The notes beneath the pieces are model-generated. The model searched no databases. It saw only the letters and a program-made list of their open reading frames with translations, and was not told where the DNA came from. This document shows positions 5,738-18,729 of a DNA stretch of 18,808 nt, piece after piece. Made by a program: the position numbers and the translations under genes. The stretch comes from a bacterium. GTDB taxonomy: Bacteria; JAMCPX01. The DNA lies in the NCBI GenBank assembly GCA_021789095.1, contig JAJYJX010000023.1, forward strand, positions 1-18,808, read 5' to 3'. Position 1 is the stretch's first letter; every line of letters begins with the position of its first letter.

Positions 5738-5846
5738 TTTACCCCGTTAGAAAGCCCCACCATGTATGGCGGGGATAATATGATAGGATTCAAACTCCCT
5801 ATGGAAAGGGTGTGGTTCAAAGTAACGTCTTTTCTAACGGGGTTTA
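5738..5846 (+). mobile_element. 101-bp palindrome-ended element between TTTA repeats, upstream of the aldehyde dehydrogenase
   Basis: The element spans 5742-5842. It begins CCCCGTTAGAAAG and ends CTTTTCTAACGGGG, an inverted repeat with one extra T, and is flanked on both sides by TTTA (5738-5741 and 5843-5846). Inside are a hairpin at 5755-5774 (CCCC-x-CCAT paired with ATGG-x-GGGG) and a second one, CCCT...AGGG around a GGAA loop. The frame starting at the left TTTA stays open to the right TTTA, reading TPLES at the left and SFLTGF at the right. The element ends about 20 nt before the gene start and leaves its ribosome binding site intact. A second 101-bp copy lies upstream of metK, and two related ones lie in pilin genes. 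The internal layout recalls ends of IS200/IS605-type elements; that is only a suggestion. Confidence 0.65.
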
Positions 5847-14120: not shown

Positions 14121-14229
14121 TTTATCCCGTTAGAAAGTCTCATGCGTTCACGGCGCGGATGGCACACAGATCCTAAATTCGTTGTAGAAACAACACCGTA
14201 TAAAGCCGAGGCCTTTCCAACGGGATGTA
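14121..14229 (+). mobile_element. 101-bp palindrome-ended element in the metK leader
   Basis: The element spans 14125-14225, exactly the length of the copy upstream of the aldehyde dehydrogenase. It begins TCCCGTTAGAAAG and ends CTTTCCAACGGGA (one mismatch in 13), flanked by TTTA (14121-14124) and TGTA (14226-14229). An internal hairpin GTTG-TAGAAA-CAAC matches in position the GGAA-loop hairpin of the other copy although its stem bases differ. The plus-strand frame is open from end to end, reading IPLES at the left and AFPTGC at the right, as in the other copies. Its coding-type orientation is opposite to metK, which argues against a metK-specific riboswitch. Confidence 0.6.
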
Positions 14230-15879: not shown

Positions 15880-16773
15880 ATGCATCAGATATTTAAACTA
15901 ATAAAGAACACAAATTCCCCCTTTCTCCCCCTTTGTCAAAGGGGGAGAAAGGGGGAATTAACGGTGTTTATCCCGTTACATCTTAAAGCTTCATTTTTTG
16001 GACGGAAGTTAAATAACGTGTTGAACAAACTATCTCAAATAAACGGTTTGATAAGAAACGGGTTGACAGATGTAACGGGATTTACACTCATAGAACTTAT
16101 GGTTGTTATACTTATTGTAGGTATTATGGGTATTATAGCAGCACCGAACATGAGGAGCTGGTATACCGGCTTTCAGGTAAGAAGCTGTGCAGATAGTATA
16201 ACGAACACACTCGTAACAGCAAGGATGAACGCAATTAAAAATGGCAATAATGTTGTAGTGGCTTTTTACACAGCCGGCAACTGCCCTAAAACTGTTGCGG
16301 GGATTGGCACCAATGTACCAGCAGGGACAAGCTGCTATTTCATAATCAATGATGCAGACAATGATTGCCAATTGCTTGCAGATGTATCAGGGGGCGGCTG
16401 TATCCAGGCAGGCGAGTTCAACGGTGTGGTAAATACCTGTTCATCAAGTATTGTTTTTCCTGCAGCTATAGTTCCAAAGCCTGGAGCAGGATTTACAGTA
16501 ACAACTACCTATTGCGCTGTTACCGGTATTAATACTACGCCCTGTGTAATACCCAATGCTTGCACGTTTTGTACGGGCAATGTTGGAGCAGTAGCATTTC
16601 TGCCAAGTGGCTATGCCCAGTTTTTGAGTGCAGGAGGACCTAATGGCGGCGGTAATATGTTGGGCGGCAGCGTGACGGTAATACCATCAATGGACGTGAC
16701 GAATAACGACAGCTCAAAGGAATACGCAGTAGGCATTATAAGCCTGACAGGCGCTGTTAAGGAGTTTTACTGA
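15880..16773 (+). CDS. FimT/GspH-like minor pseudopilin with an enlarged leader
   Basis: A 297-residue type IV prepilin, first gene of a minor-pilin operon. The prepilin peptidase site is G67|F68 in DVTGFTLIELMVVIL, with the expected Glu at +5 (Glu72) and a hydrophobic helix to about residue 88. The mature part fits the GspH/FimT type, but is unusually cysteine-rich (ten Cys between 103 and 231), suggesting several disulfides. The leader is 67 residues instead of the usual 6-25. ATG 15880 is well placed after ACGGAGG. Two in-frame insertions explain the length: a 47-bp palindrome (15913-15959) and a 110-bp element (15971-16080). Removing both leaves MHQIFKLIKNTN joined to GFTLIEL, an ordinary leader. 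The family assignment is secure; the role in pilus priming is inferred from the operon. Confidence 0.82.
   Translation: MHQIFKLIKNTNSPFLPLCQRGRKGELTVFIPLHLKASFFGRKLNNVLNKLSQINGLIRNGLTDVTGFTLIELMVVILIVGIMGIIAAPNMRSWYTGFQVRSCADSITNTLVTARMNAIKNGNNVVVAFYTAGNCPKTVAGIGTNVPAGTSCYFIINDADNDCQLLADVSGGGCIQAGEFNGVVNTCSSSIVFPAAIVPKPGAGFTVTTTYCAVTGINTTPCVIPNACTFCTGNVGAVAFLPSGYAQFLSAGGPNGGGNMLGGSVTVIPSMDVTNNDSSKEYAVGIISLTGAVKEFY
15913..15959. repeat. Perfect 47-bp palindrome inside the fimT-like leader
   Basis: Two 23-bp arms, AATTCCCCCTTTCTCCCCC plus TTTG and the exact complement, flank a single central T. It is translated in frame as NSPFLPLCQRGRKGELT within the prepilin leader. The C/G-run structure is like a dispersed repeat rather than a gene-specific signal. 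In RNA it would form a hairpin of about 20 bp beginning about 33 nt after the start codon. Confidence 0.9.
15967..16084 (+). mobile_element. 110-bp palindrome-ended element inserted in frame in the fimT-like leader
   Basis: The element spans 15971-16080, with perfect 13-bp inverted ends TCCCGTTACATCT and AGATGTAACGGGA, flanked on both sides by TTTA (15967-15970 and 16081-16084). TTTA to TTTA is 114 bp, 38 codons, with no stop. The left arm encodes PLHLK and the right arm encodes DVTG directly before FTLIE. The bases just left of it, TTAACGGTGTTTA, look like a decayed right end of another copy. Confidence 0.7.
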
Positions 16774-16890
16774 TGATATTAACCAGTAACACAATTATAA
16801 AGACTTTTATTCCTGTCATTCTGAATCCTTCGCTTTATGTCATTCTGAACGAAGTGAAGAATCTATTCCTATTAATGGAGGCATCATAAA
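16774..16890. repeat. Gap with a dispersed repeat (GTCATTCTGAACGAAGTGAAGAATC type)
   Basis: Two partial copies of the unit TGTCATTCTGAA lie at 16814-16830 and 16838-16864; the second continues CGAAGTGAAGAATC. The rest holds the ribosome binding site of the pilV-like gene (GGAGG at about 16877-16881). No gene is seen. Confidence 0.6.
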
Positions 16891-17358
16891 ATGAATAAAC
16901 AAGAAGGCTTTACCTTAATAGAAGTTATAGTTTCCATCCTGCTTTTTGCCATAGGGGTGCTCGGCATGATGGGTTTGCAGGTGCTTGCAACACGAGGGGC
17001 GGTAATCGGCAACAATAACACGGCTGGTAATTATTTGGCTAAGTCCTTAGCAAGCGAACTTCAACAGCTTCCAGTTACAGATCTTAAGTTAAAAGCAGGT
17101 CCTCACGGTTATGGTGCAAGCACTGATGCGTGTTTATTATGCAACGATTGCGGCAACCGTGTCGATGCGTTAGGCTACTGTGTCGCAAATCAGGCTAATA
17201 ACTTTAATGTTAATAATAATGTTTATGACATAATATGGACAGTTACACCTGTTACAACGGTAAACAGCGGCACACTTAATAATTTGTTAAGCGTAGCTAT
17301 AACCGTTGAATGGGCGAACGGCAATTTTACTTTAACGATTCCTGCAGGACATTATTGA
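16891..17358 (+). CDS. PilV-like minor pilin
   Basis: A 155-residue type IV prepilin of the PilV type. The leader is short and normal: MNKQEG|FTLIE, with Glu at +5 (Glu11), followed by a hydrophobic helix VIVSILLFAIGVLGMMGLQ, the GVLG segment being usual in PilV. A cysteine cluster CLLCNDC...GYC (81, 84, 87, 97) may form disulfides or bind metal. The C-terminal part is strand-rich (YDIIWTVTP, LSVAITVEW). It follows the fimT-like gene and precedes the pilW-like gene by 12 bp. Unlike its two neighbours it has no palindromic insertion in the leader. Minor pilins of this set are known to prime pilus assembly. Confidence 0.83.
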   Translation: MNKQEGFTLIEVIVSILLFAIGVLGMMGLQVLATRGAVIGNNNTAGNYLAKSLASELQQLPVTDLKLKAGPHGYGASTDACLLCNDCGNRVDALGYCVANQANNFNVNNNVYDIIWTVTPVTTVNSGTLNNLLSVAITVEWANGNFTLTIPAGHY

Positions 17359-17370
17359 TAAGGAGCTTAT

Positions 17371-18729
17371 ATGATAAAGGAACAAAAGGGTTTTGCCCCG
17401 TTACATCTAAAAAACACGGCCTTCAGACAATGGATAAAGAGTAAATCAAATACCGGTTTAATAAAAAAGCTCTCTTCTAAAGGAAAAGATGTAACGGGGT
17501 TTACCCTTGTTGAAATGGCGGTTGCCCTTGTTTTGTCATCATTAATATTAATTGCTTTAATGGGCACATTCATACTACAAGGCAGGGCATATACAGCTAC
17601 AAGGATGTCCACAGAATTGCAGGACAATGCAAGAACAGCGCTTGATACCATTGAAATGATGGTGTCAAATGCAGGATTTGGTGTTGTCAAATCTACTTCC
17701 CATCCGCCAAACGACGCAGCAACTCCGGATTCTGCTGCCTTTTATTTCCCGAACTATAGTACCGGTACTTTTGGATATGGTACTGGACAGGACAACTATA
17801 AGAATTCAACAATGGATGGCACGGAATGTTCCGTAACTCAAGGACTTACACAAGCACAGAACGGGGGGCCGTGCCCACCATACGGTACTGACAGCTTAAC
17901 GTTTGCTTATAGGGACCCGCAATACCAGGGTACAATTACCGGTATAAGTACAGCTCCATTTGAACTGATCTATACTGATAATTTTCCGTTTTTAGCATTG
18001 CAACCCGGTGATGTTACATTCTTAATAGGCGGAAATCACGGCTTATCAGCACTTGCAACAATAGCACCAAACAGTGCAGGCGGTGGATCAGGAGGAACTG
18101 TTACCCTTGACCTCTCCGGTGTATCAACAGGGTCTGCTGGTTTTTATAATGAAATAACATTAGCAAATCCAAACTTAACAAATGTTGCAGCAGCACTTTC
18201 GAATAATGGGTTTTTAGAAAAGGTAAATGTTGTTCATGTCTATGTTGACTATTCAGATGCAAATCACCCTGTTTTAATGATGCAGATAAACGGCAGCAAT
18301 CCTTTGCCGCTTGCGGACAATATAGAGGACTTTCAGGTGCAGTTTATAATGGATGACAGTATCCTTGCTACAGGTACCAATACAACCAATCCCGATAATA
18401 TAATGGGTTCTGCTGCAATTCCGAAGTATCCTTCTTTTGCCAATAACTATTTTCCTGCTACAGATACTGCAAATCACCCGCATCAAAACCCTTTAAACAT
18501 CAATGCAATAATTATAACTTTAGTGGCAAGATCAGATGTACCAAGCCAGAGCGTTGCTACTGCTTCACAACAGCTTATAGCAGATCACGATACTACTAAT
18601 AATGCAACGCAATATCCCACACCTTTACTGGGTCAACTGGCAAACTATCAAAGGCAGGTATATCAGCGGATAATTCAACTGCCAAATATAAGAACTGTTT
18701 CAAAATTGTTTGATAATAGCATGCTATAA
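17371..18729 (+). CDS. PilW-like minor pilin with an enlarged leader
   Basis: A 452-residue type IV prepilin. Start ATG 17371 follows AAGGAG with good spacing. The functional peptidase site is G43|F44 in KDVTGFTLVEMAVALVL, with Glu48 at +5 and a hydrophobic helix to about 69, followed by TELQDNARTALDTIEMMV, the helical continuation typical of PilW. The C-terminus has long strand-rich, Ser/Gly-rich stretches. The leader begins MIKEQKGF, which would itself be the expected end of a short leader, but a 36-codon in-frame insertion (APLHLK...DVTGF) separates it from TLVEM. It is 10 bp from the pilX-like gene and in one operon with it. Confidence 0.82.
   Translation: MIKEQKGFAPLHLKNTAFRQWIKSKSNTGLIKKLSSKGKDVTGFTLVEMAVALVLSSLILIALMGTFILQGRAYTATRMSTELQDNARTALDTIEMMVSNAGFGVVKSTSHPPNDAATPDSAAFYFPNYSTGTFGYGTGQDNYKNSTMDGTECSVTQGLTQAQNGGPCPPYGTDSLTFAYRDPQYQGTITGISTAPFELIYTDNFPFLALQPGDVTFLIGGNHGLSALATIAPNSAGGGSGGTVTLDLSGVSTGSAGFYNEITLANPNLTNVAAALSNNGFLEKVNVVHVYVDYSDANHPVLMMQINGSNPLPLADNIEDFQVQFIMDDSILATGTNTTNPDNIMGSAAIPKYPSFANNYFPATDTANHPHQNPLNINAIIITLVARSDVPSQSVATASQQLIADHDTTNNATQYPTPLLGQLANYQRQVYQRIIQLPNIRTVSKLFDNSML
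17392..17503 (+). mobile_element. 104-bp palindrome-ended element inserted in frame in the pilW-like leader
   Basis: The element spans 17396-17499, with perfect 13-bp inverted ends CCCCGTTACATCT and AGATGTAACGGGG. The flanks are TTTG (17392-17395) and TTTA (17500-17503), 108 bp apart, 36 codons, with no stop. The left arm reads PLHLK, the right arm DVTG, as in the fimT-like gene; the inside also shares NTGLIKK versus INGLIRN. Excision between the flanks would restore MIKEQKGFTLVEM. Confidence 0.72.

Follow-up and report, generated by a model that had tools for sequence, protein, structure and literature searches.

The two inserts in minor-pilin genes of our window, the 18,808-nucleotide stretch that we analysed (contig C139; the genome has 2.15 Mb in 203 contigs), are very likely copies of a MITE-like mobile element that goes in at TTTA(C), rebuilds the prepilin processing site and would be cut off together with the leader.

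Two inserts in minor-pilin leaders

The first insert, W1, spans positions 15971 to 16080 of the forward strand in the leader of a GspH/FimT-like prepilin gene (15880 to 16773, forward), and the second, W2, spans positions 17396 to 17499, also forward, in the leader of a PilW gene (17371 to 18729, forward). Both hosts were assigned from their translations and Pfam matches, with N_methyl above cut-off in the first gene and PilW above cut-off in the third, where N_methyl falls just under (20.7 vs 21.2 bits). The PilV-like prepilin gene at 16891 to 17358 (forward) has no insert, nor have its orthologues in six genomes of the family.

By direct reading, W1 is laid out as T-CCCGTTACATCT ... AGATGTAACGGG-A and W2 as C-CCCGTTACATCT ... 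AGATGTAACGGG-G (114 and 108 bp counted with one flank), and their 13-bp inverted ends, TCCCGTTACATCT/AGATGTAACGGGA and CCCCGTTACATCT/AGATGTAACGGGG, are perfect once the terminal base is counted. W1 lies between exact 4-bp copies of TTTA at 15967 to 15970 and 16081 to 16084 (forward), the right one of which doubles as the beginning of the Phe-Thr codon pair in the prepilin cleavage motif, while W2 is flanked by TTTG at 17392 to 17395 (one mismatch) and TTTA at 17500 to 17503 (forward). Translation runs through both inserts in frame and without a stop, reading PLHLK...DVTG and then FTLIE or FTLVE. These readings confirm what had been claimed from the sequence alone, namely two inserts of these lengths and positions before FTL(I/V)E, with perfect 13-bp inverted ends, TTTA or TTTG flanks and arms translated as PLHLK and DVTG. 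Across the 2.15 Mb of the genome, the four W1 and W2 arms are the only occurrences of the 11-mer CCCGTTACATC, and the two inserts form a CATC-armed subfamily within a larger CCCGTTAGAAA family.

A search for copies beyond W1 and W2, which the sequence-only reading had proposed, found them throughout the genome, including two more in the window. One, at 5742 to 5842, lies between listed ORFs and has CCCCGTTAGAAA ends and a TTTA duplication; the other, at 14125 to 14225, has a partly decayed right arm and flank and sits between S-adenosylmethionine-synthetase-like and Holliday-junction-resolvase-like ORFs, named from their translations. Among curated Rfam families at gathering score, the window matches tRNA only, with no match to the element. 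The leader of W1's host contains a second in-frame palindrome, unrelated to W1 and built around a TCCCCCTTTGTCAAAGGGGGA core, at 15901 to 15971 (forward); it has 35-bp arms, and no further copy was seen in the ~280 kb of sequence sampled from the same genome.

A dispersed family with a 4-bp target duplication

Genome-wide figures rest on pattern counts and sampled loci. The pattern CCCGTTN{75,105}AACGGGNTTTAC gave 16 matches in the window's own genome, compared to 0 for the reversed control, and paired ends of the form CCCGTTN{72,102}AACGGG gave 44 matches per strand, compared to 6. The end ACCCCGTTAGAAA, with one mismatch allowed, occurs 154 times in that genome and 2 times in the control, which would correspond to roughly 90 elements. 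The loci read were compiled into a 40-element table and then a 49-element catalogue, so that 40-50 copies are catalogued of probably ~90 in all.

Members take the form NCCCGTTA..TAACGGGN, with a total length of ~85-110 bp, most often near 90-108 bp, and internally deleted copies down to ~32 bp, and their interiors are unrelated to one another except inside subfamilies. Since the base beside CCC pairs with its partner at the other end (C..G, T..A, A..T), the 13-bp inverted repeats consist of NCCCGTTA plus five lineage-variable bp. The two arms of an element agree as far as position 12, much more often than after shuffling, and no further; at position 10, for example, they match in 67 of 74 elements, compared to 24 by shuffling. 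The variable ends (e.g., CATCT, GAAAG, GAGAA, CACCC and GATA) depend on the lineage, yet are equal within one element. Four copies of 32-40 bp (L265, L266, L267 and L256; G000 contigs C12, C27, C105 and C109) consist almost only of the two ends and look like hairpin terminators.

Outside these ends, we found a perfect 4-bp direct repeat in 25 of the 49 own-genome elements and 78 of the 101 elements from named genomes, while exact 3-bp or 5-bp flanking repeats were absent from both sets. As TTTA recurs, shuffling of the own set still gives a mean of 11 elements with a 4-bp repeat. Duplicated targets are TTTA or TTCA, with TTTA followed by C as the consensus, and a few others, such as TTGA, are duplicated as well. 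Together, the dispersed copies and the target duplication of exactly 4 bp bear out the earlier proposal of a mobile palindromic element with a TTTA target.

To see the family beyond this genome, we scanned the junction pattern CCCGTTAN{75,105}TAACGGGNTTYACNCT over 84,980 species genomes, which returned 72 stretches where we estimate that uniform base composition would give about seven by chance. The records come from Omnitrophota, Deltaproteobacteria, Nitrospirae, Planctomycetota, Elusimicrobia, Patescibacteria groups, Saccharibacteria, Neomarinimicrobiota, Stahlbacteria and others, all apparently metagenome assemblies. A stricter pattern, with 0 matches for its control, was present in 22 of 386 diverse genomes, including 14 that do not belong to the family of the window's genome. 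FTL[IV]E sites account for 32 of 74 junction matches; the length is a multiple of three in 28 of these 32 and the frame is open throughout in 25, while the other 7 have a broken upstream frame or an internal stop, and some of them can restart within the element. When all 101 elements in the junction-scan loci are considered, 41 were called prepilin sites, a share that is biased because the junction pattern favours FTL codons; in eight genomes sampled regardless of flank, prepilin sites make up 5 of the 20 elements read.

Copies also sit in frame in other proteins. An otherwise complete uvrA holds one (39 residues, compared to 4 in solved UvrA chains), as does an HmcC-like/multihaem cytochrome fusion, and the other open frame of the element, which reads NPVR...SNGV, is present in several further ORFs. 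Lengths divisible by three are in excess outside pilin genes too (24 of 45 own and 24 of 42 named-genome elements), an excess for which tolerance alone is insufficient; shared descent accounts for part of it, and coding copies could be a source.

Prepilin sites and the rebuilt cleavage motif

Prepilin peptidase needs a glycine at -1. In the pilin frame, the right end of the element reads ACG-GGN-TTT-ACN, and the codon before Phe is therefore glycine whatever the terminal base, which means that the G|F processing site is restored by any insertion whose duplicated TTTA lies in this phase. As had been noticed for W1 and W2, the right arm thus supplies Gly(-1), with the end and the duplicated TTTAC reading Thr-Gly|Phe-Thr.

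We propose that W1 and W2 would be copies of a non-autonomous, MITE-like palindromic element whose 13-bp ends are recognised by a putative transposase-like activity that cuts with a stagger of exactly 4 bp. Insertion at TTTA(C) would place the duplicated TTTA directly after the last four bases of the element, GGG and one more; where a prepilin gene writes the Phe-Thr of G|FTLIE as TTT-ACN, it should always restore Gly(-1)|Phe(+1)-Thr. Given a length that is a multiple of three and no stop, the 35-39 extra residues would be confined to the leader, and prepilin peptidase should cut them off with it at the rebuilt site. The finished pilin would be unchanged, and prepilin sites would therefore tolerate and accumulate copies.

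Occupancy in the window's genome is high at such sites, with 5 of 9 prepilin-like genes filled, and 5 of the 7 in which Phe-Thr is TTTAC. Three of the filled genes are the type II secretion prepilins on contig C13 (GspG, GspH and GspJ), which have other arms, translated as GFIPLE.., GFIPIE.. and GFTPLE... Extrapolating from sampled loci, the genome has about 7,400 TTTAC sites, of which on average about one in a hundred would be occupied, in a sample biased towards element-bearing loci. Most family copies nevertheless sit outside pilin genes, and some lie in frame elsewhere, as in UvrA. The suggestion that the family is aimed at a removable leader is therefore not borne out, and a matching target combined with tolerance accounts for the excess at pilins better than exclusive targeting does. 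More tentatively, the ends may be adapted to prepilins, with the element erasing itself from the protein through the peptidase site (compare inteins and introns). Leaders would then shelter the element, and dispersed copies may even originate there, which would account for the surplus of lengths divisible by three.

We then read orthologous prepilins in eight genomes belonging to the same family as the window's. The GspG gene lacks an insert in G002, G003, G005 and G006 (e.g., ATGCAAAGAGATAAAGGA|TTTACG) and has one in the window genome (ATGCCAAGAGAGAATGGA TTTA-element-TTTACC), G001, G004 and G008. For FimT, the site is unoccupied in G002, G003 and G005, and the insert is present in the window genome, G001 and G007. 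PilV is empty in every genome where it was read, and the G001 PilW leader holds three tandem in-frame units. The proposed comparison of leaders thus revealed insertion polymorphism, with empty sites in orthologous GspG and FimT genes; an inserted leader is neither common to all relatives nor the only place where copies occur. The FimT leader of G004 holds other repeat-like sequence, which, like the second palindrome in the leader of W1's host, fits leaders that are permissive in general. G005 carries a high-copy CCCGTTCCTTGAATGCCCTGCGCTCTTGGCGCAGGG... element (contigs C17, C49, C56, C58, C61, C72 and C107; L050, L059, L064, L067 and L070) whose ends are similar and whose flank is TTTAC; it may form a subfamily of its own in that genus.

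Since an insert that is removed with the leader should be free to change, we compared inserts with the mature parts of the same pilins, based on small numbers of sites. For GspG of G001 and G008, dN and dS were 0.111 and 0.081 in the insert and 0.008 and 0.123 in the mature part. The corresponding values were 0.157 and 0.048 versus 0.105 and 0.771 for L133/L141, and 0.476 and 0.649 versus 0.077 and 0.801 for L135/L139. The pairs L133/L122 and L141/L122 pointed in the same direction but more weakly, and the L151/L170 insert had too few changes for a comparison. Near-unconstrained inserts beside strongly conserved mature pilins are consistent with removal with the leader and lend indirect support to the earlier idea that the extra residues would be harmless because they are cut off.

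Some constraint may act on the CATC subfamily, judging from dN 0.24 and dS 0.62 between W1 and a G001 unit. This raises the alternative that it is an exapted leader cassette, copied among pilin genes by gene conversion or transposition and kept for prepilin handling or assembly, its selfish movement being over. CATC arms are confined to pilin genes in this genome and occur in pilin genes of relatives, W1 is close to the G001 PilW units (20 of 34 residues alike, dN/dS about 0.4), and these have been amplified in tandem to three. However, the W1/G001 sample is small (10 synonymous and 16 replacement changes), the PilW inserts of G001 and G007 diverge freely (dN 0.48, compared to 0.08 in the mature part), and the same genes lack the insert in other genera. 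We therefore consider both the retained function and the end of selfish movement unlikely.

Far less likely still is that the hairpins control translation, with the arms folding in the mRNA just past the start codon to regulate the minor pilins and the covariation of the arms being RNA covariation. Predicted folds do pair the arms, at -38 and -36 kcal/mol, and the arms covary between lineages. On the other hand, the covariation does not extend past the terminal repeat and takes in the terminal base, as is expected of transposon ends, and the same arms and duplications are found in copies outside pilin genes, which are most of the copies. This explanation, which the sequence-only reading had offered as its alternative, is also disfavoured because orthologous prepilins lack the insert and because the arms have decayed in the filled GspG genes of G001, G004 and G008.

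Known palindromic elements and the search for a transposase

Rickettsia palindromic elements (RPEs) are the textbook case of selfish DNA surviving inside proteins. Like them and their Wolbachia counterparts (WPEs), which are palindromes of ~100-150 bp found both in frame in proteins and between genes, the present family yields recognisable peptides (here TPLE..FLTG or NPVR..SNGV) in many gene contexts. Unlike them, it has another sequence and other ends, spans many phyla, has a clear 4-bp target duplication, is diverse in its interiors even within one genome and is in strong excess at prepilin sites, where its end rebuilds the peptidase site. With in-frame copies in unrelated proteins, namely pilins, UvrA, the HmcC-like/cytochrome fusion and further ORFs, the family behaves like RPEs (PMC10969869), and no RPE or WPE model was among the NCBIfam matches of four insert-bearing proteins. 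This combination makes it a new and apparently widespread family whose insertion site should be self-removing. Our search of open-access papers for GFTPLE or CCCGTTAGA returned nothing relevant, and the family appears to be undescribed in that literature.

Bacterial MITEs, such as QMITE1/2 of Coxiella (PMC5896051; reviewed in PMC10969869), are likewise short and dispersed, with terminal inverted repeats, a target duplication, no transposase gene and occasional in-frame fusions. The present family differs from them in its enrichment in cleavable leaders and in having ends that are conserved across phyla while the inner part is lineage-specific, and no parent insertion sequence for it turned up in the genes and loci read.

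The tolerance of such elements gains a simple candidate mechanism, in which the element end and the target duplication would together restore a cleavage site through which a protease takes the insert out. In metagenomes, the GFTPLE...LTGFTLIE signature will lead predictions of start sites and leaders astray for many pilins, and the family also provides a source of neutral markers and a transposase to find.

We found no autonomous copy or transposase with these ends near Y1, PF13701 or PF01609 genes or in the loci read. None of the IS1380-type PF13701 and DDE_Tnp_1 genes is linked to an element, and long end pairs that might have been autonomous copies turned out to be separate short elements (L058, the one case traced, and the pilin pairs). 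Homing through likeness of the target to the element's own end (TTTACCCTTATAGAA vs TTTACCCCGTTAGAA) was not supported, because general targets show TTTA(C) only.

The least probable origin is a REPIN-type element moved by a REP-associated tyrosine (Y1) transposase, since, although the size near 100 bp, the two inverted units and the lineage-specific ends recall REPINs with RAYT and TIRtrons (PMC3733652), Y1 genes occur in 7 of the 8 family genomes searched and TIR-flanked Y1 genes are on record (PMC3733652), the GTAG tag is absent, insertion comes with an exact 4-bp target duplication that is unexpected for HUH/Y1 transposition, and no Y1 gene is linked to the family, with 20 loci in 7 genomes showing none with paired CCCGTTAG ends and the two single CCCGTTAG-type ends near one of them (L188) wrongly oriented. 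That locus (G000:C43) carries a RAYT-like Y1 transposase gene at about 860-1690 with inverted flanks of its own, of AAATAGGGACAGCGACC type; these GGGAC-type flanks resemble those of the TIR-flanked Y1 genes already known (PMC3733652).
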